Part shown: piece after piece, positions 6,760 through 59,113 of the stretch | Position numbering within the stretch: the stretch's first letter is position 1 | How the letters are laid out: every line of letters starts with the position of its first letter | Assembly: GCA_949358305.1 (NCBI GenBank) | Contig: OX442320.1 | Location: 10,432,259-10,496,258, forward strand | Source: Strigamia acuminata | Taxonomy: Eukaryota > Arthropoda > Chilopoda > Geophilomorpha > Linotaeniidae | Direction: 5' to 3' | Length of the DNA stretch: 64,000 nucleotides | Notes under the pieces: generated by a model | What the model was told of the DNA's origin: nothing | Database searches by the model: none | Seen by the model: the letters and a program-made list of their open reading frames with translations, nothing else | Position numbers and translations under genes: made by a program

Positions 6760-7955
6760 AAAAGGGATGGTGGGTGGGGTATACAGATTCCCCATTTTTA
6801 TGTTTTAGTATTTAATAAATGGCAGCAGAAAAGTTTAAAAAACAAATTTTATTCAAGAAATAATGTATAAATTATTAATTTTGTGTAATTTTTTTATCTC
6901 AAAATTACACAAAATTAATTATACACAACATCAAACAATTTTTAATTATACAAAAATTATAAAATTAATTACAAAAATATTTAAACTTAAGTTTTAAATA
7001 AAAATAATAAATAGCGACACTGAAGTCCAGTTGCCGTCCGTCCGTCCGTTAATGTAGAAATTCACCCATTCAACCTATAATGGAAAAGAAATTCAAAATT
7101 AACTCTAAAAAAAAATGTATAAACTTAAATTATAAACTAAAAAGTGAAAATTATTAATTACTTGTTTAAACATTTCTAAAGTTAAAACGCTTTAAATTAA
7201 ACTAAAACAACTGCTAAACGTTAAAAATGCATATTACTAAATAACACTGCCCATAAAGCTGACGGGAAGTGAAATAATAATTTAAAACTAAACGTTCCAG
7301 AATTCTTAACCAAATTAAACTTCTTCGAAACAAAGAACAGAAAACCAAACGCTAAGAACTATTAAAAAAAAGTCTAAATACAAATTAAAGTGTGACAAAG
7401 AGACCACACACTCACCCCAATTCGATGCGTCTTTCCACCTCCGCGTCGAGGACACAACTGAGCCAAACCACGTGAAAAGTGAAAAATGCAAAATAGAAAA
7501 AAAAGGTTGATTCATTTGCATATCCAATCAACTAATACCATGGAAACTTCTAGAAAATATGGGCGGGAAATAGGTCAACTTCCTGCTGGCACAGTCCTAT
7601 TGGAGGAATAAAATTTTAACAAAAACAATAAAAATTAATGATGTGACTAAAAATTAATTTGAAAAAAATATAAAAAAAATTAATTTAATCCATTACTGGT
7701 ATGTTTACTTTAAATAAAGTGCCAATTTACTAATTGCTTAAGAAGAAAAAATCTATTACACACGATTACAACTAGAATAAAATATAAAATTATAAAACGT
7801 TCGTTTAAATACTCAATTCACAGATGACGTTTAAGAAAAAACTTGTAGTTAAATTCACATTACGGTAATGAACTGAAATCATCAGTTTCTAATATATATT
7901 TTTAAGTGAATCACATCGTCAATCGCAATTGCAGTCGACTTTTCTCGTGGGAATG
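6760..7955. other. AT-rich intergenic DNA
   Basis: No gene supported. A short GTCC run (GTCCGTCCGTCCGTT) lies near 7035. A moderately GC-rich patch at 7410-7500 shows no recognisable protein in any frame. Confidence 0.4.
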
Positions 7956-7959
7956 TCAA

Positions 7960-8775
7960 AAATGGTATTTTTATTTGGAAGAAAACCGAAGAACTTTGAA
8001 TTGCTTTGCTTTTCTTCCAGTTTTCAATGCGATTTTTCAACTCTGTGGCGGGGCTTAGCATGTCCACCGTAAGTGGTTGGCGAGTGAATGGAATCGAGCA
8101 AATGTCGTGCAATAATTGCCCGATCCACGATGGTGCCGCTCGGAAGAATCACCGGTTGACCGGTTCTTCCATCACCGTGTCCATCAACAGATCTAGAAAA
8201 AACAAAACATTAATATTACCGGTAATTAAAATGTTCAAATATCGACACAATTTACCCCTGAATTCATCATGCGCATCGCCGTAGTCCACTTCTCGCTTTC
8301 TATTTTCAATTAAAATTTCCTCAACACGCTTTGCAAAGCCTTCGAACTGCACTAAGTTATTTCCAACTGCACTTTTAACTAATGCTTTACTCAATCCCAT
8401 TTGAGCGTCAATAAACAGTTCTTTCTTCTAAGACCGCTGCAAATAGATTAAAATTAGATGATTGTGATTTTTATTTTTCAAACTTAAAACAAGCAGTGTG
8501 ATGTTCATACTTGATGAGCTGCAACTGCTTGTGCAAACCGTTCCGAGTCGAGATGTAAATAAACGTCGGTTAATTGGTCCAATAATTTCTTTGGCTCCCA
8601 TCCATATCGATCTGGGTTTTTCACTTTCACATTTTTACATTTCGGACCACACAATTGTTGCAGAAACGGTTCTTTAATTCCATTTGTCAGATAGTGGAAC
8701 AGATCCACTGTTTCTCGTGCTAACTGTAACTGGCGTTCATCAGTAGCCAACTGTCTGTCTCGTCCGCTGAAGATG
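7960..8775 (-). pseudogene. UBE4/Ufd2 ubiquitin ligase pseudogene, 3' end
   Basis: Three minus-strand exons match the C-terminus of UBE4 (Ufd2), the U-box E3/E4 ubiquitin chain-elongation enzyme. Exon 8775-8511 carries LCGPKC and [20 protein letters not shown]. Exon 8436-8256 carries FAKRVEEILIENR and DYGDAHDEFR. Exon 8192 to about 7960 carries the U-box pieces LLMDTVMEEPV, LPSGTIVDRAIIARHLL and PFTRQPLTVDMLSP. Introns (8510-8437 and 8255-8193) have GT/AG ends. It is disabled: TAG at 8428-8430 near the start of the middle exon, an 8-bp tandem duplication at 8151-8166 that shifts the frame inside the U-box, and a second frameshift near 8086-8098. Compared with the family, a block before LCGPKC also seems missing. 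Upstream (8840-8960) there may be a further decayed exon. Confidence 0.85.
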
Positions 8776-8829
8776 CTGTAAAATATTAATGATGAATTAA
8801 TTTTATCCCAATTGAATGAATTCAAAAAT

Positions 8830-9519
8830 ATTTACTCGAGCTTGTTGCTTCCACGTTGATTTGTTTTCACTGCCCAACTGTCTCTTCTCTATTCTGTGGC
8901 TGTAACATGATAACGCATTTCATCTGGTACTAACTTATTTAAAATCACACTTGCTGTTGTTTTTTAATCTTTACGCAGCAATTTTTACCCAGAAAAAAAT
9001 ATATACGTATATTCTGGGCATAACCCACAATAAGAAAACTATAAATTAACAACGTTACAATGTTATTTAATAATGGTTTTTCTCATAGAAAGGGGCAACC
9101 ATTACGAGTACAATCACATGATCGTATCACCTGACTGAATTTTTTCCAAAAATCTATTGCCGCCATCACCCAAATGTTTCCAGACACAACCCACTGGTAA
9201 TCATAAATAACCAAATATTATTTTATCCTTTGAATTTCAGTGGCCAAAAACGATTAATTAGTAACTAAAATACTCAAAAATTGGAGAGGTGACAAAATTG
9301 AGATTTAAAATTCTGAAAAAAATTAAAGTTGAATTATTTTCAAATTTAGCGCCCAAGTAGTCATTTTGAAGTTTGTTGTCTGTAAAACAACAATATGACA
9401 ATTATATTCACTTGGCAATATCGCAAAATCTCAAAACACCGTGTTTCTTCGAACTATAATCGCCCTTGATGACAAGTCGCTCACCAGGCTGAAGTTGGCA
9501 CCACATTCACATTCACATT
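8830..9519. other. Intergenic DNA left of the minisatellite
   Basis: No intact gene. Bases 9495-9517 carry a short run of TTCACA units leading straight into the 12-bp array. Confidence 0.4.
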
Positions 9520-10717
9520 CGCTGGGGAGCCCGCTGGGGAGCCCGCTGGGGAGCCCGCTGGGGAGCCCGCTGGGGAGCCCGCTGGGGAGCCCGCTGGGGA
9601 GCCCGCTGGGGAGCCCGCTGGGGAGCCCGCTGGGGAGCCCGCTGGGGAGCCCGCTGGGGAGCCCGCTGGGGAGCCCGCTGGGGAGCCCGCTGGGGAGCCC
9701 GCTGGGGAGCCCGCTGGGGAGCCCGCTGGGGAGCCCGCTGGGGAGCCCGCTGGGGAGCCCGCTGGGGAGCCCGCTGGGGAGCCCGCTGGGGAGCCCGCTG
9801 GGGAGCCCGCTGGGGAGCCCGCTGGGGAGCCCGCTGGGGAGCCCGCTGGGGAGCCCGCTGGGGAGCCCGCTGGGGAGCCCGCTGGGGAGCCCGCTGGGGA
9901 GCCCGCTGGGGAGCCCGCTGGGGAGCCCGCTGGGGAGCCCGCTGGGGAGCCCGCTGGGGAGCCCGCTGGGGAGCCCGCTGGGGAGCCCGCTGGGGAGCCC
10001 GCTGGGGAGCCCGCTGGGGAGCCCGCTGGGGAGCCCGCTGGGGAGCCCGCTGGGGAGCCCGCTGGGGAGCCCGCTGGGGAGCCCGCTGGGGAGCCCGCTG
10101 GGGAGCCCGCTGGGGAGCCCGCTGGGGAGCCCGCTGGGGAGCCCGCTGGGGAGCCCGCTGGGGAGCCCGCTGGGGAGCCCGCTGGGGAGCCCGCTGGGGA
10201 GCCCGCTGGGGAGCCCGCTGGGGAGCCCGCTGGGGAGCCCGCTGGGGAGCCCGCTGGGGAGCCCGCTGGGGAGCCCGCTGGGGAGCCCGCTGGGGAGCCC
10301 GCTGGGGAGCCCGCTGGGGAGCCCGCTGGGGAGCCCGCTGGGGAGCCCGCTGGGGAGCCCGCTGGGGAGCCCGCTGGGGAGCCCGCTGGGGAGCCCGCTG
10401 GGGAGCCCGCTGGGGAGCCCGCTGGGGAGCCCGCTGGGGAGCCCGCTGGGGAGCCCGCTGGGGAGCCCGCTGGGGAGCCCGCTGGGGAGCCCGCTGGGGA
10501 GCCCGCTGGGGAGCCCGCTGGGGAGCCCGCTGGGGAGCCCGCTGGGGAGCCCGCTGGGGAGCCCGCTGGGGAGCCCGCTGGGGAGCCCGCTGGGGAGCCC
10601 GCTGGGGAGCCCGCTGGGGAGCCCGCTGGGGAGCCCGCTGGGGAGCCCGCTGGGGAGCCCGCTGGGGAGCCCGCTGGGGAGCCCGCTGGGGAGCCCGCTG
10701 GGGAGCCCGCTGGGGAG
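9520..10717. repeat. 12-bp GC-rich minisatellite, about 100 copies
   Basis: The unit CTGGGGAGCCCG repeats about 99-100 times with no mismatch that I can see along the whole run. It is about 83% GC in an otherwise AT-rich region. Because 12 is a multiple of 3 and the unit has no stop codon in several frames, it produces long spurious open frames (Leu-Pro-Ser-Gly, Pro-Gln-Arg-Ala, Gly-Ser-Pro-Leu) on both strands; I do not treat these as genes. Each unit contains GGGG tracts and a GGGAGCCC near-palindrome, so G-quadruplex or slipped hairpins are possible. The right end abuts the copia LTR exactly. Confidence 0.97.
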
Positions 10718-11336: not shown

Positions 11337-14300
11337 TTATTTCGAGATGAAGATCCGGGACAACAAATTTCGGAGGCGTTCGGAACTAAGCCATTTCGTG
11401 AAAATATCCGAAACATTTATTTCACCCGGAATTTTGCGGAGTTCGAAGCATCCGGCAATATGCCATTCTCGAAGCCAATGGAACTTCACTCGAATATGTT
11501 TGGTTTTCGAGTTCTCGATGTCGTTGTTCGTGAATTGGATCGAGGCGAGGGCATCGGAGAAAATAATCGGTTTCGATAATCGGTTTAACGGTGGAAAGAC
11601 TCGATAGATACTGTCCAACCAGTATAACTCTTTAACGATTTCGACTAGTGCTACAAATTCGGCTTCCATGGTGGAACAGGCGACGCTGGTCTGCTTTTTG
11701 CAGCTCCAGCCAATTGGCACACAACCGATATAAATGATGTATCCTCCGAAGCTTCTCGATGTCGCAATGTCACTCGCCCACGACGCATCTGTGTATCCCC
11801 ACAGCTGACTGGAATTACACCCCGAGAGTTCGATCGAGAAATCGCTCGTGTTCGCCACGTATTTGAGAACTTGGAGCAAACACTTGATGTGGCGGTGGTC
11901 GTAGCAGTTATTATACTGCGATAAAGCGATGACCGAATATAATATGTCGGGACGAGTGCGAGAAGCGAGGAATAATAACGATCCGATGAGCGATCGGTAC
12001 GGAAAGTCCGGGAGATTATCCAACGAGCCTTTGACGAGCGTGGTCCCCGGTGTGACAGGCACTTTAATGAGTGCATCTGACGAAACGTTGAACTTTTTAA
12101 GAAGTTTGTCGATGTAGGAGCGTTGGGACATGAAAACTTTCCCATCGCGACGCACGAATTCTACCCCGAGTAATTTGGTTATTGGTCCGAGGTTGACGAT
12201 GTCGAATTTGCTGGAAATCAGCGCCAAAATACGGTCTCGGATACTCTCCGACGCGTAAAACACGACGATATCGTCCACGTAGACTAACATAACAGCCGAA
12301 TGTCCAAATGCGTAAACGCAATTACAAGCGGGAAATTTCTGGAATCCGAGGTCGGTTAACGTCTCGTTGAGCTTCTGGTACCACATGCGCCCCGACTGGT
12401 GAAGACCGTAAAGTGACTTGGTTAACAACCAGACGTTGTCGGGTGAGGTGCATGTGGCGCCGGCGGGAATCCGCATGTAAATTTCGTGGTCGAGGTCGCC
12501 GTAAAGGTAGGCACACTTGACGTCGAGGTGGAGATCCCTCCATCCTAGTAAAACGACTAGGAGGCAGAAAAAGAATCGGATGAGCACGAAGTTAACCACC
12601 GGACTAAAAACTTCATCGAAATCAACGCCCATTGTTTGGCGGAAACCTTGTGCGACAAGTCGAGCACGGTAGCGGTGAATTTTCCCGGTGGCATCCGATT
12701 TCAACCGAAAAATCCATTTACACCCGAGGATTGTCTTGTCCGGGGGTCGTGGAACTTCCTTATAAACTTCGCGTTCCTTGAAAGTCGTGAGCTCCTCATC
12801 GATTGCCTCGGTCCACTTCGGTGCCTCGGGTAGCTTAACAGCTTCGGCGTACGTGGACGGCTCTCGAAAACACATAAGGACGCGATGAACAGGTTGCTCG
12901 TCCTGCAATTGATGTTCGAGGTTGCCGAAAAAGAAAATGTCCTCCTCATACGGAAGTTGGTGAGCGACGCAATATCTTTCGATGTCCCCTCTCGACCTTA
13001 AGCGGACACCGTGCTCCGGATAGTAATAAACGTCGACCTTGATTTTGCCAGGCGCTTGTTCTTTCCGGAGATGCTCTTCCCTCCTCCATCCGCTGAAGGG
13101 CGTATCTCCACCAATAAAACGATAGGGGCAGTGAAGAGCGCGTAACGGAGCGAGGGGCGGTGCAGGCGTTGCAGCGGCCGCTGGTAAGGCGGCTGCCTTA
13201 TCGAGGAGATCATCGAGGAGATTATCAAGTGGATCATCTTCGGGGTCGTGCTCGAAATCACGTTCGGGATAGCGTTCGAAAAATTGTTCGATATCGTGAT
13301 CAACGTCGAGTTCACTATCGCTGGCCTCAGGGGTGTGAGGTTGACGAGCCAAAGCATCGGGACGTAATCTCCTCCGAGGACGGTAAAGCGGAAGTGGTGG
13401 GTCAGGCGTGACGTCCAAATCGATGTCCTCCGGTACATCGTCCGCAAACAGAATAGGAGGAGGCAATTCATCAGCAATGTCCTCTTCGACCTCCTCGAGG
13501 ACGGAGCGATATGAAGCGACTGATGAAGCGCTTGATGGAGCCCGATGGCGGAATTCATCATCGTCATTAGATGATTCATCGTCGGAATCACGACGTCGAC
13601 GTGACCAGGGGACAGATGGGAAAGCGCCATCGTCAAAAGTGACACGAGACGGTGTAGTGACGCGAGAAGGCTCCTCCATGAATGGAGCATTTTCGTAGGG
13701 ATCCGGAACGTAAAACGGCGAGCGTTTGAAATTCTGACGTTCATCGATTTGAACGTGAACGGATTCCGTGACGGTGTTCGTAGCCGGATTCTAAACCCGA
13801 TAACCGCGAGTGTTGGAGGCGTAACCTACGAGGAATCCTTCCCACGCCCGTGGATCCATTTTGTTGCGCCCGGGTGCGGTGAAATGCACCCAGCATTTAG
13901 AACCAATTTTTCGGAAATGTTTGACAGAGAGGGCACGCTGGCGCCATAAAACATATGGAACTTCGTCGTTAAGTTTCGAATGCGGGCTGCGATTTTTAAC
14001 GTACGAAAATGTCACAGCGAGTTCAGCCCAAAGTGTGTGTGGAAAACCGGTTTCGGAGGTAACGGAGCGAAGATAGTCGCCCATCGTCCGGTTTAGGCGT
14101 TCGGCGACCCCGTTCATTTGTGGGCTTCCGGGATTGGTCCGTTGTGCGACAATGCCCTTGTCAGCGAGGTAACGGTCAAAAGTCTTAGAAATAAATTCCC
14201 CGCCGCGATCCGTGCGAATTGATTTGACGCGAGAATCCGTAATACGTTCAACGCGAGAGACAAAGTCTTTGAAAGTTGTGAAGACGTCGGATTTGCGTGC

Positions 14301-16277: not shown

Positions 16278-16940
16278 GATTGCACGGAGAAAAATGCGTA
16301 GAAATGGGAAATTGACGCACAATCGACGCACAATCGACGCACAAACGAAGCACAAATTACGATGCGAAGCACTTTCCGTAGCACTGTCAAAGCGGAAACC
16401 AAGAATGGGCAATTCCTTCTGAAGGAATTAAATAGCTTTCGGTTGCCAGTCTGAGAGGGTCCGTTCGACTTCCTGGAGCCGCGGGAAACCTCACTTGTAC
16501 CACGACAAGCACAACCGAAAAATACAACGGCGCTTGCCCGGATTCGGACGAAGGGCGCCGAGGATTCTAATTGTCCCACACCAAAATTCCCACTTAAAAT
16601 TAACAAAGGTAATTCGACTCTGAAAGGCAAAATAAGGCGAAATTGACGAATCAGTCGCGGTGCACGTCGCAACACGCGATCCTCGTGTGAAAAACACGGA
16701 TATGTGCGATTTTAATCGAAAAATCGCGAAAAACGAACGAAAATCGTCGATACTGTCGCTATATTTCCAGTCCGGCGGCTTTTGGCCAGGCCATAAGGCC
16801 AAACGCTACCGAAACGTTACCTGGTATTTTATCATGTTACCTCGATCTAAATGTTCCAAAACCGAGGAGTTTTTGTACCAGTGCTGAAAACACATAGGGG
16901 GGGGGTCTCTTATTTGAGACGCAGTACAATATTTTGTGTC
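16278..16940 (-). other. Region upstream of copia gag
   Basis: In element orientation this is where a leader and 5' LTR should lie. It has a CG/AAAA-rich texture like the leader at 63.4-63.7 kb, but no LTR sequence and no primer-binding site (no CTCTGCTACCA on the plus strand). The element therefore lacks its own adjacent 5' LTR. A nine-G run lies near 16896. Confidence 0.6.
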
Positions 16941-16943
16941 AGG

Positions 16944-17430
16944 CGCCACACAATGAGCTGCGCATGCGCTGTGCCAATGAGATGCGAGCTGCGCATGCGC
17001 TGACCAAATGAGCTGCGAGCTGCGCATGCGCCGAGGCATGCGCTGACCGAATGAGTTGCGAGCTGCGCATGCGCTGACCGAATGAGCTGCGAACTGCGCA
17101 TCATGCGCTAAGCCAAAAAGCTAAGAGCTGCGCATGCGCTGACCGAATGAGCTGCGAACTGCGCATCATGCGCTAAGCCAAAGAGCTAAGAGCTGCGCAT
17201 GCGCTGACCGAATGAGCTGCGAACTGCGCATCATGCGCTAAGCCAAAGAGCTAAGAGCTGCGCATGCGCTGACCGAATGAGCTACGAACTGCGCATCATG
17301 CGCTAAGCCAAAGAGCTAAGAGCTGCGCATGCGCTGACCGAATGAGCTGCGAACTGCGCATCATGCGCTAAGCCAAAGAGCTAAGAGCTGCGCATGCGCT
17401 GACCGAATGAGCTGCGAACTGCGCATCATG
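16944..17430. repeat. 65-bp tandem array rich in GCGCATGCGC
   Basis: About five regular 65-bp units (from about 17100) and earlier irregular ones, built from GAGCTGCGCATGCGCTGACC, GAATGAGCTGCGAACTGCGC and ATCATGCGCTAAGCC. The palindrome GCGCATGCGC occurs about nine times. It fits 11 of 12 positions of the NRF-1 consensus and is an alternating purine-pyrimidine (Z-DNA-prone) sequence. Confidence 0.9.
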
Positions 17431-17786
17431 GAAACAAAAAATTGAAGAGGAAATCGATTATATAAGTTGTTTTAACACGCACACATCTTGAATAACATAT
17501 TTAAAACCTGACATATGTGCAATACTGGTCAAATGATAAAGAAAGTTAAATGGAAGCATCACAATAACAACAATTTTACAACAAACGTTAGATTTGAAAA
17601 GTGAAATTTATTTAATTGTCCTTTTAAAAAATGTTTGTTTAAATTTGGAAAATAACGGCACTGCTTTTAAATATTTAAGAAAAAATTTAAAATGTATTTA
17701 ATCAATTAATAGTAATTACCGTATTGAAACAGCATTTGTTTATGAGTTCTCAGGTGTGTTTAGTATACTGTGACTAACTGCAAAAG
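17431..17786. other. AT-rich spacer
   Basis: Nothing recognised. It lies 3' of the caspase-like gene and is probably its 3' UTR and flank. Confidence 0.4.
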
Positions 17787-19183
17787 TTATTTATGATTAT
17801 ACAAGTGGCAATCATTGCAAAAATAAACAAATTTTGTGAGTGTGGATTGTAAACAAGAAATACATTTTGCATATGAGGAACGGAAACAAGAGATTCGATC
17901 TTCCTTTCTGAACGTCCGTGAATTCACGATGGTCAAAATATTCAATAAATCCACGTCACTTACTCCGATCACAACATGATAAAGTGTATAAAAATAATCT
18001 GTGATAGAACAAAAAAGAGTAAAACAACAATTTAAAAATCCAAAATTTAAATTACCCTCAGCCGTAGAAAAGGCGACAAGAATGTCAGCATATTGGGGTC
18101 CTTGAAACGCTCCACTCTGCTCGATCAACTTGGAATCAAACGCAAGCGCCTCGTTTTGATAATTCTTCAAAATCTGATTGATTTTGATAGCTTCGTCGTT
18201 TCCTTGACATGTCCCCAGCAAGCCAATGAATGCAGACTGACTTTCGCCAGTCCTGAAAGCTTCACGGTTCTGTGATTGCTGGAATAGATATTTTGATGCT
18301 TTTTTCAGGCACTGGATGGAGTTGTCACTATCATCATTGCCACCATTATCATCATCATAATAATCATCATAATCATCATGCGATGACGACGACATGCTGC
18401 AAATACTCTCGTCACTACTTCTTCGGCTACCCTCGTTCGTTTGTTTGCTATCAGTTTGCGTGTTGGAGATCGATTCGTTGTTGTCCTCGGGGTCTACAAT
18501 GTCTTTCAATACGATTTTGTCGTTTGAAGTCGTCACAAGAATTTTATCCGGTGATTTTTCAACACAATTCGAGGACATCGCAATCTCAGTCTTCGAGTTT
18601 GTGCTGTCTTCAGCTTCCTTGTTTAAGCATGGAATCTTCCCTTGAATGATGTTCGTATCTTGCATTTTGATCCCCGTATCCAACTCAGCTTTGGGATCTG
18701 CCTGAATAAAGAAGAGTTTCGGCTTGCCTTTTAGCGAAGGGCACTCGGCGTCCGTGAAATTTTTCCACAGCTCTGAAATGGGGAATAGTTTGTCCCGTGA
18801 ATAAAGCAGGTTTTGATCACCATATGAGGAAACTGCACAAGCAAATACGTCGTAATCTTTGTGATTCTCCCGTTTCGCCACTAAATAACAAAAACAAAAA
18901 AAAAGATAGAATAAATGACGTCACAAACTAATCTAACTTATTAATTACAATCGTATAATACATCCATAATCTCGGCGTAGCTCGCATTTCGAACAATAAT
19001 AATATCAGACCTAGTGAAACCCCAATGCAACAAAATATCAGTAAATAGACATTCGTCTAAATCTGCTTGCTCCCGTGGTGCCAGACCTGGAATGTCATAA
19101 ATGTAATGATTAAATATGACAGCTCTTCCCCTTCTCTGAAAATTCATCCGGTAATCGAAATCGAGTTTCAATTCTGTGTTCAT
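17787..19183 (-). CDS. Catalytically dead caspase-like protein
   Basis: Three exons give a caspase fold: 19183-18949, 18880-18056 and 17998-17787, with introns of 68 and 57 bp (GT/AG). Exon 1 (ATG at 19183) has the p20 start: YRMNFQRRGRAVIFNH and a conserved PRxxxDxD. Exon 2 has KDYDVFACAVSSYGD and CPSLKGKPKLFFIQADPK. Family members have SHG (catalytic His) and QACxG (catalytic Cys); here they read SYG (about 18824) and QADPK (about 18698), so both catalytic residues are replaced. About 200 residues of linker follow, Ser/Asp-rich with an Asp/Tyr run (about 18340-18400), then p10 with YADILVAFSTAEG and, in exon 3, DVDLLNILTIVN and STLTKFVYF. The p10 part between ST and DLL is shorter than usual. 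The 57-bp intron has no stop in frame, so retention would also give a protein. No prodomain is visible. All frames are open, unlike nearby pseudogenes. It may be a decoy or regulator like other inactive caspase homologues; that is inference. Confidence 0.85.
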
Positions 19184-20518
19184 GCTTGGTTACCAGCTGG
19201 CAAAAGGCTTTTAAAACCAGTAATCGGCTGTCGACGGTTTTTTAAAATGTTTATTATCCTATATACATTGGGTTCTTTTATTAACAACAAAATTGCATTG
19301 AATTTTAATATAATTCCAATAAATTTAAATTGTATTTCTGTAAATTAGAATTGATTTTCTGTAAATTTGAATTAATTTTCTGTAAATTTGAATTAATTTT
19401 CTGTAAATTTGAATTAATTTTCTATAAATTTGAATTAATTTTCTGTAATTTGAATTAATTTTCTGTAAATTTGAATTGACAGTCAAAAATTTTTAATTGT
19501 ATTTTAGCAAATAGGAATTAACTTTCAATAAATATTAAACAGTAGTAATTGCAATTGAATTATGCTCAAAGACACGTTTTTTCACCTATTTTTTAAATTG
19601 AATAAGATGTTTAAAAGACAACTAGCTATTTTACATTCTTCTAGCTTCTACAAACAGAGTCGATCGCATAATGCAAATAACACTTTCAGTCCCACTGCAC
19701 CACTAATCCGATAATTGGCTTCAGCTGCATTCCCAGAAGGAGAGCTGAAGCCAGGTCATGTGACAATAATCTAACCCTCCTTAAATAAAAGGTCAATGAC
19801 ACTAAATGTGAAAGATAAACATGTTAAAATTGAATACAAAATATTAAATTGAGTTTTACAGAATAATAAAACAATGAAACACCAAAAGGAGTATATAAAA
19901 TCAAATAAACGACATTAAAACACTAGAATAATTGGATAAACCATACAACACTAAATGCAAGGTCAGCAAATATAAATGAAATATAAATGAGCAAATGACA
20001 GTGAATATTACATCAAAACAAATAAAAATACACAAATGTTAAATGTAGAATCAAAGGAAATAAAATACACAAATATTAAATAAAATCAACACATTAAAGG
20101 GAATGTGAACCTGGAGTAAAACGCCAGTTTTCACAGTTATTGTATTACATTTGTCTTATATGTTTTATTAAAATTGAAGCAAAATCCAGTTAAATGTTTA
20201 AAATGTTCACGTAAAAATTCGAAATTGTATCTTTTTTTATAAATAAATAAATTACTAATATTCATTTTCTATTTTTATTAAAGCATTTAATCCTTTTCAG
20301 AGTCTCTGTTGTACAGATAAAGATTTTTGCAGAGTTTGGAGAAAACATACAGCAAAACTGCACTTAAAATTGAAGAAGTAAACTGGAGTTTATTAAAATT
20401 GTATTTTAATTTGTACTTTTACAAATTTTAGTTTTATAGACAGGAAATGATTTTGTTTTTTGTTTTAAAAATAAACTTAAACACAAAATGTTTAATTTTT
20501 TAATGCAGCTGTACTATT
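19184..20518. other. AT-rich intergenic DNA with a 22-bp repeat
   Basis: Bases about 19345-19480 are about six copies of GAATTAATTTTCTGTAAATTT. The rest has no recognisable gene. A short complementary pair (GGCTTCAGCTGC / GAGCTGAAGCC) lies near 19718-19752. Confidence 0.5.
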
Positions 20519-21586
20519 TTACATGAAAATGCGGAGAGTAGAGGTGACACCATGCCTGCAGGAGGGGCACTGTGGAGTTGCTTGCGCACGGCGGGCATCG
20601 TCCAACACACGGGCGCTGCAAGTAGCGCAGAAATAAGCGTGCAAACAAGGTAGCATCAGTGTGTTTCTGTCCTGAACAAGACAGACTATACACTTAGCCT
20701 GTACCCCCTCCTTCGCATCCACTACATTCGAAGATCTTGGATTAAACCCCCCGGAAGTGCTGCTGGTGGTTCCAGACGGCGCTCCAAAGCTGGTGTTTGG
20801 CTTCAAACGGAAGGGATTAGTCGCGTTGGTCAGATTGGCGGACCGAAACACCTTCGGGGCTGTCGTGGTGGCTCTAAATCCAGTTTTATTCTCTAAAATA
20901 CCCGGTTGATTTTGAGTCGTGAATGGCATCGTTCCGAGCATGCTCGAGAGAAACCAGTCCGGCGCCGGTTGATTTGTTGTCGTTCCAAACATCGATTTAT
21001 TCTGATTCGCAAGTGTACTTCCAAAGTTATTCGCGCCACCTGAGGGATAATTGAAATTAAAACTCGACTCGGCCGTAGACAGGAAGGGTGTACCGAACGT
21101 CAGGGGTTTCGCCGCACCAAAAGGTGTGTTATTTTGCTGCTGCATCGGTTGCCCGAAGATGGACGTAGTATTCGCCATCACATCAAAAGGATTCGTGGAC
21201 CAACATAAAGGTTCATTCAGATTTTGAAACAAGCCGGTTGTCGGAGTGGTTGTACTGCTACAAAAAAACGACGGTTGCGCCGCACCGAAACCCCCAAAAG
21301 TCCCCGGTTGAGGTCCCTTCCGATTACTCTGATAATCTTCCAGCATTAGTTCCTCCAAGCTCTTCGTTTCGTATTCCTTCATGACCGTTATGCATTGATG
21401 CCTTATGTTAATCGTCGCGTTTATGCCGTTCTTCATCAATGTATCGATTCCATCCACTGCATTAAACTTGATCGTGGTCCCGTTTGTATCGGTCGCCGAG
21501 CAAAATGGCGCGTTCTCGAACCCGAACCCGAATGGCGTCGATTGAAAACTGTTGGTGTCGCCGAAAGGATTGTTATATCCGGCCAT
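20519..21586 (-). CDS. Nup98-like FG/GLEBS protein with C-terminal RING
   Basis: Single-exon gene of 355 residues. The first ATG is at 21586 in good context (AAAAATGG); upstream codons are open but have no ATG. Residues about 41-92 match the GLEBS motif of Nup98, the segment that binds the mRNA-export factor Rae1/Gle2: VDGIDTLMKNGINATI, HQCITVMKEYE and KSLEELMLEDYQSNRKGPQ. Around it lie about eleven FG dipeptides (TPFGFGF, GTFGGFG, SIFG, SMFG, TSFG). Instead of the Nup98 autoproteolytic domain, the last 57 residues form a C3HC4 RING (C-X2-C-X11-C-X-H-X3-C-X2-C-X16-C-X2-C), most like the Neuralized/IAP type, ending TLRIFM. All eight zinc ligands are present. The likely role is an E3 ubiquitin ligase tethered to nuclear-pore or Rae1 partners; this is inferred from the domains. 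It could be a retrocopy fused to a RING exon. No lesion is visible. Confidence 0.85.
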   Translation of the reverse strand: MAGYNNPFGDTNSFQSTPFGFGFENAPFCSATDTNGTTIKFNAVDGIDTLMKNGINATINIRHQCITVMKEYETKSLEELMLEDYQSNRKGPQPGTFGGFGAAQPSFFCSSTTTPTTGLFQNLNEPLCWSTNPFDVMANTTSIFGQPMQQQNNTPFGAAKPLTFGTPFLSTAESSFNFNYPSGGANNFGSTLANQNKSMFGTTTNQPAPDWFLSSMLGTMPFTTQNQPGILENKTGFRATTTAPKVFRSANLTNATNPFRLKPNTSFGAPSGTTSSTSGGFNPRSSNVVDAKEGVQAKCIVCLVQDRNTLMLPCLHAYFCATCSARVLDDARRAQATPQCPSCRHGVTSTLRIFM

Positions 21587-22085
21587 TTTTACTGGTTCGT
21601 CGGTGCAAAATCCCACCAGTGACAATATGTAAAAGTGCGAAAAATTATTATTGAATTTCGTCACCGTTTAATTGCATTAATACCAAGTAACAAATACCCA
21701 TCAAACTTTAAATCGTAAACCATCTATGTAATTTATTTGGAACAATAATAATATTATTTTCTGAATAATATTTGTCTTAAAATGATCAAATGTCATACAG
21801 TAAGTGATGATAATTTGATTTGATTTTGCTGCCTAAGTCAAAAGTATGTTGTATTAATAAATACAACATACTCCATTGGAAGAATTTATGCAAGATACAA
21901 TTTCATTTTTCTTTTAATAACTGATCAACTTCCCATTCCCATCCCAAAAATTAATCACCCATCACGTTAAATTCAATCAACAACACCAACCTACAAACAA
22001 ATCAGCCAAACTTACTAAATTCTTTGAATCTTTGCAACTCGCTCAACATCTACACTTTAAACAATACCACGAAACCATTCTACTA

Positions 22086-22290
22086 ATGACATTTAATTCA
22101 CACATTTATTGTAATTAGAAGAGTTTATGCAAATACAATTTCATTTTCTTTTAATAACAACTGAAAAAAATTTCAAATAACAAAAAGTTTAATTGACCTC
22201 ATCATTCGGTGAAGTGAGTCAGTTGATGACAAATCAGTCAATGACTCCGTTCATTTCTCTTTTAATAACAAAAATTTTAATTATGTGACC
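22086..22290 (+). repeat. 205-bp dispersed repeat, copy 1
   Basis: Contains ACATTTAATTCACACATTTA, GAAGAGTTTATGCAAATAC, CATCATTCGGTGAAGTGAGT and GACTCCGTTCATTTCTC in order. It recurs nearly unchanged at 23858-24060 and in part at 23755-23857 and 24110-24215. Confidence 0.85.
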
Positions 22291-22989
22291 CGATATTTTG
22301 ATGAAACTCATATAAGCGAATGATTTAATCAAAATATCACATTTATTCGCCTTTTAAAATTCAGCTTGAATTGATGTTTTATTCATCAAGGGGGAAAAAT
22401 CGTGCAGGAGGAAAAGACGTGGAACAAAAAAAAATTAACTCTACCATAAAGATGACTTGATGCTTATAAAAATGAAATTTGAACTTTATTTTTTTAAGGT
22501 TTTAAAAATTGATAATTTATTAATAACATTTGAAGAAGAAAAATGATAAATATTTATGTAAACTGAGAAAATTTCTTTAATTTTTCTCTTTTTTTCTAAT
22601 TCTCGGTGCACAAAATTACTAAATAAGAATGTAAGGTTTTAAATATTGTAAATAATAAATAAATAAATAAAGTGGATTTTTGTCAAAAGAGAGAAGGGGA
22701 ACGAAGAGAATTTGCTGTGGGCCAATATTGAAAAGCTGACGTTTTCTGCTTGAAAGAAATATAAGCTGGAGTTTGGTAAAAAGCCAATATTGAGTCTTCT
22801 AACAAATTAAAAACTAAAATAAGAAAATTCAATTTACAAATGAAAAGCTGGGAATAAAAATATTGTAATTCTTACTGGCTGAAAAAATTTGATAAGCACA
22901 AAACTATAAATAAAAAATAAACAACATTTAGTATTATCTTTTTAAAAAAAGATAGTCCACAAGGAAGTTGAAAATCTTTGCAAATCAAA

Positions 22990-23735
22990 ACAGCTGTTGC
23001 TGTCGGCGTCCGGCCGTGTGGACGACCGCTGGCTAACATTTAGGAATGGTTGGGGTGAACTGCAGACGCCCGCGGTCAGCGAGCCCAAGGAACGACGCGA
23101 CTGGCGAGACTGCATGGCGCTGGTTCAAATGGCAATCAAACTTCTCGTCGTCACTTGTCCCTGGCCCCTGGGATCGGGATGGAGAGCAGATTGTGTTTCT
23201 GCTCTCATCCAGTAACATGGAGGTTCGGATTTGATGGCTAAGTCCGGCTGGAAGCTGGCCAAAACCACAAAGAAACACAAAAGAGAGAATAAACACAAAC
23301 GTGTGTTTATTCAACAAAAACAAATTGGCAACTGACTGCAAAACAGTCAAACAACAATATGTACGGTCGAAACGGTCCAGGAATAGTCAAATCAGCGCCT
23401 CGAACTCGGCGTATACAAAACGTTCGTTGGGTCGCTCGAAATGGCGATTCAAACGAGCCAAATCATTGGAAAAAGGACGACGGCGGAAAAGATCGTTTTC
23501 CTTCACAAATACTGAACAGATCCTTATGAGAATTTAATCCAAGGCTAGTTCTGGCCTAATAAACTTAAATAGCCGCTAAAACAAACAAAATCAAACGAGG
23601 AACAAAAGATACAAGGGCCAACGCCCGTTATTATCCAACATGGCGGTTTGAGGTTTGTAAACCTCCAAACTTGTGCAAATACGAATTAGAGCGGACATAA
23701 ACTTTATTTTCAATCTAATTTGGACTTGGCAGTCC
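22990..23735. other. GC-richer block, possible solo LTR
   Basis: Starts near CTGTTGCTGTCGGCGTCC and ends near GGACTTGGCAGTCCAAATTATCA, and is clearly richer in GC than both flanks. It is inserted between copies of the 205-bp repeat. The size and TGTTG start are LTR-like, but no target-site duplication could be fixed and no element protein is present. Confidence 0.3.
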
Positions 23736-23857
23736 AAATTATCACTTGGAAACCGTCATTTCTCTTTTAATAACTGAAAGAATTTTCAAATAACAAAAAT
23801 TTTAATTATATATTTTGAGGAAACACGTATTAAGCAAGTGATTTAATAAAATATGAC

Positions 23858-24060
23858 ATTTAATTCACACATTTATTGTAATTAGAAGAGTTTATGCAAA
23901 TACAATTTCATTTTCTTTTAATAACAACTGAAAAAAATTTCAAATAACAAAAAGTTTAATTGACCTCATCATTCGGTGAAGTGAGTCTGTTGATGACAAA
24001 TCAGTCAATGACTCCGTTCATTTCTCTTTTAATAACAAAAATTTTAATTATGTGACTAAT
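23858..24060 (+). repeat. 205-bp dispersed repeat, copy 2
   Basis: Near-identical to 22086-22290 (GTGAGTCTG for GTGAGTCAG). A further partial copy follows at about 24110-24215, just upstream of the CDS at 24328. Confidence 0.85.
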
Positions 24061-24327
24061 ATTAAGAGGAAACACGTATAAGCAAATGATTTAATAAAAT
24101 ATGACATTTCTTTCACACATTTGTAATTAGAAGAGTTTATGCAAATACAATTTCATTTTCTTTTAATAACAACTGAAAAAAATTTCAAATAACAAAAAGT
24201 TTAATCATGTGACCCGATATTTAGATGAAACACATATAAGCGAATAATTTAATCAAAATATGTCATTTATTTCAGACATCTGTTATTGAAAGAACGTTAC
24301 ACATCATCGTAGTTAAACGCATTGAAG

Positions 24328-25170
24328 ATGAGAAAAACAACACCTCTTAAACCTCCGCGGGAACTCATCATGACGGAAGACGAAATCAGAGCTCTTTGGG
24401 AAGGAGAGTTTGAGCCAGATAAATTTGTAAAGCAGAATGAAAATGCCCAAGCAGCCGATCCAAAGCTGGAAGACTCTAAAACAAAACATTCATCTAGTAA
24501 CGTCCCCGTTCTCACAATGGACACTGATGAGACTTCAACAGACTCACTTCGAGAATCACTGAATTATGAATTCAACCACCAGCTATTTTTATCGGCTCGA
24601 GAATTGGCTAAACAATCGGCAAACCCATCAAACAGAGATGCGTCATTATCACCCATTGAGACCTCGGTGAAACTGCCAAAAATTGCAAAAATTGATCCGC
24701 GCCTTTGCAACAAACCATTTTTGTCAACACTAAAGGGACTCGATGAAGAAGACATAATTACGACTAAAAAGTACCCCATATTGTGTGAATTACTGACCAG
24801 GGAACCGCGCATTAAGGAGCCTATGTGTGCACTGACACTGATTGATGAACTAGTGCCAGATAATACAATTGTCTGCTCATTGCCATGGAATCAGGCTACC
24901 CCCTTCAGCGTGGATTGGGCCAGCCAAACGCGACTGTTCGAAACCATCGTCTTTTCAGACCTTCATTTAACCCACTCATTAGGAGAGAAAATTATACTTC
25001 TAGTCAAAGAACATTATCAATTGTTCTTTCTTCAGCATGTGGAGAAAGCAGTGGAGAAAAGTTATGCCACCTCAATTCACCAAGTGAAATTGATATTGCT
25101 AGGTGTAGCGTTGAAATTAATCTACCGCATCATTGATGAGATGCAGGCGGCGGCGGCAGCATTCAAGTGA
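24328..25170 (+). CDS. Hypothetical protein, 280 residues
   Basis: Open frame from ATG at 24328 (an in-frame TTG lies 6 bp earlier) to TGA at 25170, without introns. I do not recognise the family. It starts basic (MRKTTPLKPPRELIMTEDE), with an acidic ALWEGEFEPD patch, a polar low-complexity middle (about residues 35-95), then a more ordered C-terminal half with LPWNQATPFSVDWASQTRLF and two long, probably helical stretches (about 215-275, including HQVKLILLGVALKLIYRII) before an Ala run. No signal peptide is seen; the last hydrophobic stretch might be a buried helix. Its length and amino-acid composition in this AT-rich context argue for a real gene. It lies about 2.7 kb from the Nup98-RING gene on the opposite strand. 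Confidence 0.6.
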   Translation: MRKTTPLKPPRELIMTEDEIRALWEGEFEPDKFVKQNENAQAADPKLEDSKTKHSSSNVPVLTMDTDETSTDSLRESLNYEFNHQLFLSARELAKQSANPSNRDASLSPIETSVKLPKIAKIDPRLCNKPFLSTLKGLDEEDIITTKKYPILCELLTREPRIKEPMCALTLIDELVPDNTIVCSLPWNQATPFSVDWASQTRLFETIVFSDLHLTHSLGEKIILLVKEHYQLFFLQHVEKAVEKSYATSIHQVKLILLGVALKLIYRIIDEMQAAAAAFK

Positions 25171-26957
25171 TAATTAAATCAACAAAGAAATTAGATGTGT
25201 TTACGCGCATATAACGTTTAATTCACAAACTATTCGTGATGGCACTTAACTTTTCTCTATTCCAATTATGATTTGTCAATGTGTATGTTCATTTGCAGAG
25301 ATTTATTTCAAATTTTATTTTAATTGTGAAATTTCCGCTGTTGACCTTTAATTAAAAAAAAAAATAAGAAATAAGAAATTGTATGTCGGTGTAGGAAATA
25401 AATTTAATCAAAGCAAATTTATAAATAACAAATGTAGTTTAAAAAAATAACGCATTGCATAAACAACTCAGAGGGGGGGGGGCGGAACTAGCGGGCCAAC
25501 ACGAAAAAGCGAGAATGGCAGTGGCGTATCGGTGATAAAGCCAAAGCGCGACAGGCTGGGAAGCGACGATCATATTAGTGCGACACAGTCAAAGCGTGAT
25601 AAAGTATTAGCGTGACAATTAGTAAAGCGACTGGACCCAAACTGTTATACCAGAAAATTAAAATTCCACACCCAAACATGTGGGAGTTTTTGACAAAGCT
25701 GCTTGATGATGACTTGACCACAAGACAGTATTCCTCCAGAGTAATAAAAACATGAAATTAGAAATAGTTAAAAAAGTTTTTAAAAGTTTTTAAAAGCAGT
25801 TAAAAATAAATAAAAATAAATGTCGCCCATTAGATGTTTCGTTCATGCACCGACAAATTTGTCCAATAAATTTGCAACAGCTTCTTTCCTTTCATTGTAT
25901 GATTTCCATGAAAATTCAATTCCATCAAATCAAATCAAATAAACTTAATTTAATTTAATCACATTTAATTTAATCAATTGTCAAATTAAACCATGTGTAA
26001 GTAAAGTGTTGAAAATCAAAAATTTTAACCTAAGTTAATTTAATTTATTCGGATTGATTTAATGGTGTGTGTAATGTAAAAATTTGCACATATCAGTAGA
26101 TCGAAACAAACAGCAGCGCCATCTATTGCACAAAATCTTTGCGGAAACAATCAAAATGAGGCAGGTCTACCTCATGGTCTCACTTGTTCAATCAGTCATA
26201 ATAAAAAAAATTCACGTTATTTTAACAACGGCTGGTTATTTATTCTTTTTATTATTCATTTCTCAACCTGAAAAATGTATATTTATTTTAAAAAAACTGA
26301 TAATAAATCCAATAAATGGAAGTTTAAAAGGCCTCCTCTTAATCGATCATCTTTTATCTGTTGATGATGAATGCTAGGAATGATGGTGGCCAGTGTGGGA
26401 GACCCGCAGCCCATCGCATCCTTGGGGAGACGCCATATTGGTTTGTGGGATTAGAGAAATGTTTCAAACGAGACTTTAATCCCTGAAAACGTCATTGAGT
26501 TGGGGTGTCGAAGGTGATGGTGATTGACAGGGAGCTTGTTGACAGGAAAGTGGGAATCAAAATAAATAAAAGAAAAATAGCCCCAAATTGTTTTGCTTCT
26601 ATTTATTACAACGTTACATTTTATCTTTGAAATAAATAAAAAAATTACAGCCAACGAAACAAAACCTTTACATTTTAAAAAACAATCACATATTGTTGGA
26701 AGAGATCACAATTCCCCATCACGCCCCAAACAAACAAACAAAAAAATACAATTTCGAACAAATTATGCGATTATTTAAAAAAAAATAACAACATACCGGT
26801 ACGAGAAAAAAATAATTATTTGCGTTAAAATTACCATACCAATCTTCAACTTTACAAACCTAATTAACATCTCTGAAGTTGCTGAAGTTTATTTTCATGC
26901 ACACCTATGAATTGTCACCAATATAAATACCAGCAAATCAATAATAAATCAATAAAA
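25171..26957. other. Intergenic DNA with a dispersed repeat
   Basis: Bases about 25910-26090 form a repeat (AATCAAATCAAATAAA, AAGTAAAGTGTT, TTCGGATTGATTTAATGGTG) that recurs at about 50885-51080. A GC-rich patch at 25470-25640 starts with a G run and has loose GCGTGATAAAG-type repeats. No gene recognised. Confidence 0.5.
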
Positions 26958-34006: not shown

Positions 34007-34880
34007 GTTTATTTGGTGAAGGACCAGCAGATAGATGAGAACGGTTGAGAGGAAGACCGAAGACAGCAAGAAAAATAAGTAACACAAATCAAATTATGAC
34101 CACACAAATTTAATTTAAATTAATTACAGCACGAATCGACATGGTACCAAGAAGGAACTGCAAATTTGGCAAATGCACGTTATTGGTTAGCCGAATATTC
34201 AATCCGAAAGTATGGCATTCATTCTAAATTTAATTTATTGGAAATTAAACAAAATAAAATAAAATTTACAGAGCGCGAGAACGGTTGAGAAAAGCGCGAG
34301 AATTTCAATTCATCCCAGATTCGCGACGGAATGAGAAACAACAAGAGTTACACAAACGTCTTCGCGTACGAAATTTACGTTTTCAACAAATTTTCCAACC
34401 ACTAAATTAAAAATTAATTATTTCAGGGGTTGAACATATTTGCCAGTCAAATCGGCGACACGCGTCCGGTGTCGTTCTGCCTATTTAGTCCAAACGGTAA
34501 AATGTTAGCCACGACGTCTTGGACCGGTCTGTGCAAACTTTGGTCCATTCCCGACTCCCAACTGATTAAAACGTTACGAGGACATAACCAACACGTTGGC
34601 GCAATGGTTTCCCACCCACAGTCGACGATTTCCCTCTCCCCGAGTGTTTGCAACATGGCGTCGAGCTGCGATATTGATTTTCAGTGTGACGGTTCGTTAG
34701 CTGTTACGGGGTGAAGAATTTATTAATTAATTAATTATTATTGTTATTAAGTTGGTTTTTTTTAGTGGACTGGATGGATTTGGTCGAATGCAGGACTTGC
34801 GCAGTGGTAGATGTATAATGTAATGTTTATGAAGGGACATTTGAAGTCTATTTATGGAGTGTCGTTTTCACCAAATGGGT
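34007..34880 (+). pseudogene. PRPF4 (U4/U6 snRNP Prp4) pseudogene
   Basis: Plus-strand exons follow PRPF4, a WD40 protein of the U4/U6.U5 tri-snRNP. 34007 onward: LFGEGPADR then a stop where family members have Arg (AGATGAGAACGG). About 34130-34211: STWYQEGTANLANARYWLAE. About 34272-34364: RERLRKAREF and QELHKRLR. About 34427-34714: [34 protein letters not shown] and [11 protein letters not shown]. About 34766-34880: GLDGFGR, DLRSGRCIM and GHLKSIYGVSFSPNG. The copy is broken: the TGA, an in-frame deletion joining MASSC to [14 protein letters not shown] that removes roughly two WD repeats, and a frameshift after CIM, where TAATG is duplicated. The downstream WD repeats are missing. Confidence 0.88.
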
Positions 34881-35570: not shown

Positions 35571-36528
35571 AAAAATCGAGTTTTTTTATTTCAATTTTTG
35601 AACTTTCAATAGCAAGAATTTTGTGATTGTAAAATTATTTATTAACGTTAAATATAATGGCTTTTTTTTTGTTTATTTTAAAAATAGATAGTTTGAGTAA
35701 ATCGATACGAATACAAATACATATGTTTTAACAATGTAATGACGAATTTAGTTTATTTAATAATCTCAATTTCAATTCTTATTTTTAGTATGATGTTGAT
35801 GATTATCTGGGACCTAACTTTAAGGAGTTCACCAAACTTCGAGCGTGTAAGTGATGTAAGTGTGTCATTTTGATTACTTTTCTGGTCTTTTTTATCAATT
35901 TATGTTTTGAATTTACCCCAAAATGAATACCGTATTTTATCATCAATTATTATTTTGGCTTTTTTAGTTTTTTAAATTTAATTTAATTTAATAATAATAA
36001 TAATAATTTAATTTAATTTAATTTCAAAATGGCTGCTATTGCATACCGATTGCTGTTGTTTAGGTTTGGGTTAGGTTTTCGGTTAGGTTAGGTTCGGTTA
36101 GATTTGGTTCCATTTTTGTTTGTTAGTTTTGTGTTTTGGATTTAAATGGCTGCATTGGTTAGGTTTCGATTAGGTTATGTTTCGGTTCGGTTAGGTTTTG
36201 GTTGCATTTTTGTTTGTTTTGGCTGGATTAGCGTTACTGGTTTGGTTTTAAATGGCTGCACTGGCGTTGGGTTTTGTTTTGCTTTGGGCCTGCATTGTAT
36301 TGGCTGGATTGGGTATTGGCCGGATTGGCGTTGGGTTTGGCTTGGGCCAAAATTGTATTGGCCGGATTGGCGTTGGGTTTTGTTGTGCTATGGTGTGGTT
36401 TTAGTTTGGGTTTGTATTTGTATTATTATGCTTTGGGTTGGATTATTGGTTTGGTTTTGCAAAAATGTAATTTATGATTTTGCTGTACACATTTGTCTGA
36501 TTTATGGCTCTGCGGGTGAACAGCTAGT
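35571..36528. other. AT-rich and TTAGG/TTGGC-like repetitive DNA
   Basis: Bases about 36058-36200 are rich in GGTTAGGTT variants, and about 36240-36430 repeat GGATTGGCGTTGGGTTTxG. The first set resembles degenerate arthropod TTAGG telomere repeats, but it is interstitial and imperfect. A short open stretch at 35790-35850 (VDDYLGPNFKEFTKL) is unassigned. Confidence 0.4.
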
Positions 36529-36750
36529 TACTCTGTATTTGTAGATTTAGGCCCAGTTTACAACAACTGAGTTGTTTGGCCATTTTTTTTCATCTATTAC
36601 TTTTTTTTGGGGCGTTTTCCTGGTTGGATAAGTTCTATTTCAGGTTTGGCCTTGCTTGCCTCATGCTCCGGCCATATGAGAAATGCTTTTGTGACAGAAA
36701 TTTCTAATACAATTTCTGCAGTTGTTCACATGGCTGTTTTTATCCTATCA

Positions 36751-36905
36751 CGAATTAGCAAAATTGGATTAACCAATGGCACGAATTAAGTTTTATCAAT
36801 TATGACTCACTATTTTTGTGCGTCATCTAGTTGCATTAAGCGAAGCCGTTACAATTGAGAAAAACCTTAATTCGTGTCATTTATTAATAAAATTTTCCTA
36901 ATACG
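36751..36905. repeat. Inverted repeat in satellite unit (unit 1)
   Basis: CGAATTAGCAAAATT and CACGAATTAAG face CTTAATTCGTG and AATTTTxCTAATACG: arms of about 52 bp with roughly 50 bp between. An inner stem ATGACTCAC/GTGCGTCAT sits within the loop. It is conserved in all units. Confidence 0.8.
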
Positions 36906-37048
36906 AAATATGATTTAAAAACCAGTCATGTGAATCAATTGTAGAATTTGTATTTCAAATTTGTGTAATGAATTTATTTGCTTTTTAAATATTGCAACTT
37001 TTATTGTTCTTTATTAAAGTTCAATTTATTTAGTTTTTATTGCTTTAA

Positions 37049-37455
37049 CCCTCCCCAATCCAACCTAGGGTCAATTTTGACCTCCAAAAGTGTTTTTATT
37101 TTTTTTCTCATTGCATTCAAAGGTAGTGAGTAAACAAAGGAATTTTTTTTGAAAATTTTTATTTGCAATTTTTAAATCTATTATTTTTTTTATTGTTTGT
37201 TATGATGTTCAATGCAAATACATGAAATTTCAGAATGAAAATCCCAATAGTTTTTGAGAAAAAAATAAAATGTCAATTATTTTTATCGCTATCTTCTGAC
37301 AAATGCCGAATTGCTGAAATTTCTTCATAAACATGAAATTCTCAGAGAATAAAATCATTTTCACTCCTCATTTTGGGAAAATTTTTTTCGGCTAGGGGTT
37401 AAAAATGACCCGGGTTGGGTGAGTAAGAAATTTTTTTAAGTTGGGTCTGCGAGGG
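37049..37455 (+). mobile_element. piggyBac-type MITE inside satellite unit (unit 1)
   Basis: A 407-bp segment starts CCCTCCCCAATCCAACC and ends GTCTGCGAGGG, directly flanked by TTAA on both sides (37045-37048 and 37456-37459). The ends CCCTC/GAGGG are inverted, and CCAACCTAGGGTCAATTTT matches the inverse of AAAAATGACCCGGGTTGGG. TTAA target sites and CCCT-type ends are piggyBac features. No transposase. The same segment is in every complete satellite unit, and a rearranged copy lies at 58049-58420. Confidence 0.75.
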
Positions 37456-58890: not shown

Positions 58891-59113
58891 GACATTATGG
58901 CCAAATAGGCAGTCTGGCCTACCGTAATGCGTGTATGTGAAGAAAAGAAAGTATTATATTCATCAAGTAAACTTTACAGTAAGCTAATAATAACAAAGGC
59001 AATAATTCTTTTATTTTTGTTTTTTATTATTATTCACAGTATACAGAAGAAGAGAGAATATGGACATTGATTCAAATAACTCAAGTCATCAGCTCAACCA
59101 GTCTTCTTGAAAC
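58891..59113. other. Spacer between two related arrays
   Basis: Non-repetitive, AT-rich. It contains GGCCAAATAGGCAGTCTGGCC near 58911 and no gene. Confidence 0.5.

Follow-up and report, generated by a model that had tools for sequence, protein, structure and literature searches.

An intronless gene that joins a Nup98-type GLEBS motif and FG dipeptides to a C-terminal RING was found in the 64,000-nucleotide stretch of Strigamia acuminata DNA analysed here (hereafter the window), which sits on contig C9 of an assembly of 237.5 Mb in 157 contigs. The favoured reading is that a tandem duplicate of Nup98 acquired a RING and was then retrocopied and amplified, and that the encoded protein would dock on Rae1 and ubiquitinate Rae1 or its cargo. 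Taken as a whole, this history and function were given an even chance of being right.

Domains of the predicted protein

The gene consists of an uninterrupted ATG-to-stop frame of 355 amino acids on the minus strand (21586..20519; 355 codons plus stop, intronless), supported by translation, Pfam and genomic copies. The original prediction of a single 355-codon frame holding GLEBS, FG dipeptides and RING was confirmed by translation and Pfam, and the strand, which it had left out, was minus. A chance or spurious frame was ruled out by the Pfam and PDB matches, the FG shuffles and the genomic copies described below, since five full-length copies in the genome (the window's included) run without internal stop.

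Residues 48-85 matched Nup98_GLEBS (PF21240) with 75.4 bits against a curated cut-off of 27, covering the model nearly in full (2-39 of 39). Residues 35-90 matched the solved Nup98 GLEBS peptides 4owr, 7byf and 3mmy (E<1e-18, sequence against PDB), and the length of the PDB peptides was matched as well. From these matches, residues 36-92 (21311..21481, minus strand) were assigned to a Nup98-type GLEBS, predicted to form the hairpin that binds Rae1/Gle2. At residue 81, an Arg nearly invariant across 46 sequences was replaced by Met, both in the window copy and in a spliced GLEBS-RING gene on contig C11 (see below), a change that could weaken binding.

The C-terminus matched zf-C3HC4_3 (PF13920) over residues 297-349 (40 bits, curated cut-off 27). 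The full set of eight C3HC4 zinc ligands, as read at this end of the frame in the original prediction, was complete (C299, C302, C314, H316, C320, C323, C340 and C343). Searched alone, the C-terminus found its best PDB match in the RING of MEX3C (5zi6, E 2.2e-5) and matched BIRC2/3 weakly (E 0.04-0.05). PF13920, the PDB matches and the family in the same genome placed the RING at residues 297-355 (20522..20698, minus strand), including a tail that resembles those of MEX3/IAP-type RINGs. This tail, after the last ligand, ends in LRIFM and is presumably of the kind seen in dimeric MEX3/IAP RINGs, while Ile300, Pro341 and Arg344 (the latter after the last ligand) occupy what we take to be E2-contacting or E2-activating positions of known RINGs. 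A single-sequence structure model of the RING was uninformative (mean pLDDT 41.5).

Between both domains, alignment showed a Nup98-derived, FG-containing linker with no constraint detected (residues 93-285; 20732..21310, minus strand), followed by a junction stretch leading from the Nup98-derived end to the RING (residues 286-296; 20699..20731, minus strand; alignment with the C11 gene and Nup98). In place of this junction, the counterpart exon of Nup98 continues into FG sequence. The frame contained 11 FG dipeptides, in line with the roughly eleven first counted; 10,000 shuffled versions of its residues averaged 2.5 and never exceeded 8. PF13634 was present in 42 of the 46 scanned proteins and was not reported for the window protein (E up to 1). 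Only 7 of the 18 aligned FG dipeptides of Nup98 were kept; since 11 were lost and the stretch is unconstrained, the proposed role at the permeability barrier of the nuclear pore is unlikely. Selective loss of FG dipeptides was itself unsupported, 7 of 18 being near the 9 predicted from 71% per-residue identity. Pfam found no S59 autoproteolytic domain in the window protein, the domain that closes normal Nup98.

A spliced fusion gene, related retrocopies and the probable source of the RING

Searching the genome for the GLEBS family returned 11 matches, 10 of them above cut-off. The host Nup98-Nup96 gene was located on C11, from about 7390.1 kb, with a GLEBS exon, an S59 piece (41.8 bits) and a Nup96 piece (55.3 bits), and the genome's two S59 (PF04096) matches both fell inside it. 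Directly upstream lay a second gene (C11:7387422-7388965) of seven coding exons with GT..AG introns; its exons, joined at the GT/AG sites, gave an intact 371-aa GLEBS-FG-RING protein. This gene was collinear with Nup98 until the beginning of the exon that reads GGFNAGTSLFNQ in Nup98, and its own corresponding exon diverged from GGLNAGIS onward into linker and RING. Judged by this collinearity, it is a tandem duplicate of Nup98, truncated and closed by a RING in its final exon. The chimera of Nup98 and RING first read in the window was borne out. Retroposition was rejected as a required origin of the fusion, which is present on C11 in intron-containing form, in a spliced tandem duplicate adjoining Nup98. 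Two more degenerate GLEBS pieces (29.3 and 22.8 bits) were seen upstream of the spliced gene (G000:C11:7385459-7386162), hinting at additional rounds of tandem Nup98 duplication.

The C11 gene has an 82-bp intron in its 5'UTR (7387279-7387360; intron ends by eye) that is absent from the window copy, although the 5' untranslated stretch itself aligns between both (21587..21722, minus strand). Five of the six C11 coding introns could be checked by eye and all were missing at the exact join; the sixth join (exon 2/3) falls in a shortened stretch of the window copy. The suspicion of retrocopying was thereby upheld, an intron-containing relative being present and the checkable splice joins removed exactly. 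This pattern marks the window gene as a processed retrocopy belonging to the C11 GLEBS-FG-RING lineage, with retroposition after fusion. The surroundings of the window copy showed no poly(A) remnant and no convincing target-site duplication, only direct repeats of 9-10 bp; the flanks of this copy have been moved by later duplication. The source need not be the present C11 gene, because the GLEBS-exon DNA of the window copy was 88.6% identical to the Nup98 exon but 82.1% identical to the C11 GLEBS-RING exon, and the 3'UTRs of the window copy and the C11 gene matched for a few bases only (by eye). Synonymous distances among the window copy, the C11 gene and Nup98 were all about 0.2, so duplication, fusion and retroposition would be of similar age.

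Five intact full-length copies were recovered: the window's on C9, an identical one on C3, two on C5 and one on C18, the last three being 97-98% identical to the window copy (97-100% among the copies). A copy on C12 was broken by an extra base and a stop, another on C13 was decayed, and fragments of the retrogene occurred on C5 and C18. As flanking DNA is common to the copies, they multiplied as DNA; on this comparison the retrogene reached at least seven places through DNA duplication, and in five the frame is intact and full-length. Genome comparison delimited the unit common to the C5, C12 and C18 copies (C13 partly) to 20136..21826. To the left, the other copies have a common flank that departs at 20136 from that of the window copy, with one of the C5 copies deviating once more. 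Because the other copies continue to share flank beyond 20136, a mobile unit ending there was rejected. A 10.2-kb stretch around the window gene (16759..26956, tested as 16759-25541 and 25600-26956) recurred on C3 with 100% identity; the C3 copy may have arisen by duplication very recently or be duplicated only in the assembly. Tandem repeats of 2,511 bp on C18 (L015 and L016, in G000:C18:60001-80000), each with the promoter side and the first 18 codons of the retrogene, adjoin one complete GLEBS-RING copy.

A search of the genome gave at least 116 matches (E up to 1), 89 of which matched the RING part alone and lay outside the GLEBS-RING copies. Among the 87 tested (the two omitted being second pieces beside another match), 12 had a MULE transposase domain on their own strand no more than 3 kb upstream; random positions, in a control for which three contig sizes were guessed, averaged 0.06. 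Eighteen stretches holding such places were retrieved, and two frames, 640 and 759 aa long (L043:1322-3241 and L044:892-3168, other loci of the same genome), encoded MULE-type transposases that have a RING at the C-terminus in addition to the MULE domain. Four loci (L036, L037, L039, L040) carried a stretch homologous to the tail of the MULE-RING transposase; L033 and L034 had only a short weak match to it. Exon 7 of the C11 gene was closest by DNA to the RING locus L030 (76% over 161 bases), and tblastn found no MULE tail at the five loci nearest by DNA (L030, L038, L041, L031, L035). Homology places the RING of the GLEBS-RING genes in a multi-copy family, some members of which are C-terminal on MULE-type transposases. 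A transposase-related RING is thus supported, whereas its direct capture from a transposase is an inference, no MULE tail having been found at the five nearest loci. A MEX3-like frame with KH and RING exists separately in the genome (L047). A ubiquitin-ligase domain on a DNA transposase merits a study of its own.

Several other features were observed in the window. An effector-caspase-like gene (17790-19189, minus strand; Peptidase_C14 by Pfam, upstream exon by eye) carried a long acidic insert and, compared with caspase-7, Tyr for the catalytic His and Asp for the catalytic Cys (SSYGDQ, QADPK); by these substitutions it is a pseudo-caspase or a decaying gene. A copia-type element (11340-13790, minus strand) had a methyl-CpG-binding-like domain (PF01429, 25.1 bits, cut-off 21) upstream of the reverse transcriptase, found also in 6 of the 120 listed among 371 copia-element relatives, two of them named Araneus ventricosus. 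A divergent Dicer gene (52308-54743, minus strand; PAZ and RNase III domains in 52822-54471, outer exons by eye) had Drosophila Dcr-1 and vertebrate Dicer as its closest solved structures. Tandem arrays occupied 9520-10717 (12-bp unit, about 100 copies, 100% match), 36500-47500 (unit of roughly 1,022 bp, the spacing taken from frames and repeat arms) and 59107-63290 (50-bp unit, about 84 copies). Apparently broken fragments, read by eye, resembled UBE4B (7885-8831, minus strand), PRPF4 (34418-34711, plus strand) and CYP4 (3633-3797, plus strand).

Selection and proposed function

Comparison of the window copy with the C11 GLEBS-RING gene (NG86, Fisher test) showed constraint on the RING, with dS 0.287, dN 0.108 and dN/dS 0.37 (p 0.017; 12 synonymous differences in 50 sites, 16 non-synonymous in 160 sites). 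The GLEBS alone was not significant (dN/dS 0.50, p 0.18), GLEBS and RING together gave p 0.007, the FG stretch displayed no constraint (dN/dS 1.11, p 0.79), and the ratio for the whole frame was 0.78. All six indels between both genes were multiples of three. Polarised by L030, the RING counted 4 synonymous and 1 non-synonymous changes, a count biased to slowly changing codons. Polarised by Nup98, the GLEBS took 1 synonymous and 5 non-synonymous changes on the retrocopy branch, and the FG stretch 5.5 synonymous and 38.5 non-synonymous ones (parsimony, 175 codons), a possible non-synonymous excess (p 0.007-0.054 depending on the mutation model). The C11 branch had 5 synonymous and 8 non-synonymous changes in the FG stretch, and the difference between branches was not significant (p 0.10). 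Read from these rates, the RING is kept, the GLEBS is probably kept, though not provenly on the retrocopy branch, and the FG linker is free or pushed to change.

That the frame is intact and hence maintained, as argued originally, gained from the RING conservation and the six frame-keeping indels; the lesion-free argument itself is weak, given how young the copies are (97-100% identical) and that two others are already broken. Youth and breakage would also suit intronless copies, the window's included, that are largely functionless and drifting to decay, even if the C11 gene may work, an alternative we think unlikely and yet worth real weight. Among the four distinct intact retrocopies, the 26 variable coding sites (10 synonymous, 16 non-synonymous) did not split significantly away from neutrality (p 0.06-0.23), and coding sequence was more variable (26/1068) than the flanks (2/240 and 6/369). 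Drift would equally account for the lack of any sign of constraint in the FG stretch, and in the GLEBS on the retrocopy branch. It sits poorly with the frame kept by 6/6 indels and with the RING constrained between window copy and C11 gene. Nor would drift predict that non-synonymous variation spares GLEBS and RING, where it made up one of 7 variable sites (the other 6 synonymous) against 15 of 19 elsewhere (4 synonymous; p 0.005, grouping post hoc).

In the favoured history, the 5' part of the host Nup98 would have been duplicated in tandem upstream of Nup98, the duplicate shedding part of its N-terminal FG region and its last exon acquiring a RING from the multi-copy RING family. An mRNA of this GLEBS-FG-RING lineage would then have been reverse-transcribed and integrated in intronless form, and DNA duplication would have multiplied the resulting retrogene, of which the window holds one copy. 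In the protein, the GLEBS hairpin may dock on Rae1 (Gle2), a beta-propeller, and would there compete with Nup98 and further GLEBS proteins. The RING at the C-terminus, probably a MEX3/IAP-type dimer, would recruit an E2 and ubiquitinate Rae1 or Rae1-carried proteins, and the FG part would serve mainly as a flexible spacer. Targeting of Rae1 is plausible. The GLEBS of Nup98 binds Rae1, according to passages of PMC8790125, and two RING E3s have been found bound to Rae1, directly or in complex: PHR/Highwire (passages of PMC4806438) and TRIM34 (passages of PMC13189347). The start of a section heading in the latter describes the E3 activity of TRIM34 as 'not required', so binding to Rae1 need not mean its ubiquitination.

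A decoy resembling TRIMCyp has a small chance of being the better account: the GLEBS, with or without Rae1, would bait invading elements or viral proteins directed at Rae1-Nup98 and the RING would mark them for destruction, an arms race driving both the amplification and the fast change of the linker. The multiple recent copies and the possible non-synonymous excess in the linker would be expected of it, and several viral proteins attack Rae1-Nup98 (passages of PMC8790125 and PMC13189347). The presumed bait, the GLEBS, however changes little among copies, the linker excess is weak (parsimony on 175 codons, not significant against the C11 branch), and the viral contigs scanned held no relative. 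We give only slight credence to a GLEBS competitor without ligase function, which would titrate Rae1 from Nup98/Bub1-type partners and use its RING only to dimerise or for self-turnover; the GLEBS spans nearly the full Pfam model and the length of the PDB peptides, but the RING, not the GLEBS, is best conserved and retains its ligands and E2-contact-type residues. A self-made degrader, in which a transposase-related RING captured by the Nup98 duplicate would have yielded a Rae1-targeted ligase, later retrocopied and amplified as a rapidly changing decoy against invaders that use the Rae1-Nup98 export route, which it would destroy in the way of a TRIMCyp-like restriction factor based on the nuclear pore, is a long shot. 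A viral or endogenous viral origin was set aside, as two scans of viral contigs gave no relatives.

Occurrence elsewhere and comparison with known systems

A search of about 5.8 billion proteins, covering lengths of about 195-621 aa, found 45 homologues, all 45 with a Nup98 GLEBS and none with a RING; in the Pfam scan of these 46 proteins (query included), RING families appeared only in the query. A longer Nup98-RING protein could be missed in this length range. Querying for homologues of the RING region alone returned 4 candidates, of which none was scored, and a full-text literature search, a weak test of absence from print, found no paper describing a GLEBS-RING fusion. The original prediction, which knew of no such fusion as a standard family, thus agrees with the homologues, viral contigs and literature searched. 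The domain combination is real and apparently undescribed, and forms a small amplified family with a traceable birth. Chimeric retrogenes and RINGs shared with transposases are already known; the combination and the predicted target are new.

One genome contains normal Nup98, the spliced fusion and the retrocopies together, so that the assembly of a new gene from a duplicated nucleoporin and a RING with transposase-borne relatives can be traced. If Rae1 is bound and the ligase active, the protein would be a natural targeted-degradation chimera against the mRNA-export and spindle factor Rae1, and a defined module for Rae1-directed degradation.

Compared with known systems, the GLEBS and FG region of the window gene is collinear with the exons of host Nup98, from which the gene differs by the lack of S59 and Nup96, the loss of part of the N-terminal FG region, fewer FG dipeptides and a RING at its end. 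The MULE-RING transposases carry a C-terminal RING homologous to that of the GLEBS-RING genes, which in contrast lack the transposase domain. As in MEX3C/IAP-type RING E3s, the RING of the window protein is C-terminal and its last ligand is followed by a hydrophobic tail (the IAP matches being weak), but the protein has a GLEBS targeting module instead of KH or BIR domains. PHR/Highwire and TRIM34 have a large or a TRIM architecture, unlike the window protein, and we know of no Nup98-type GLEBS in either. TRIMCyp arose from a retrocopied bait joined to an existing E3 gene; the window gene resembles it as a retrocopy-related chimera of a host bait and a RING E3, and differs in that the whole fusion was retrocopied, whereas in TRIMCyp only the bait was.
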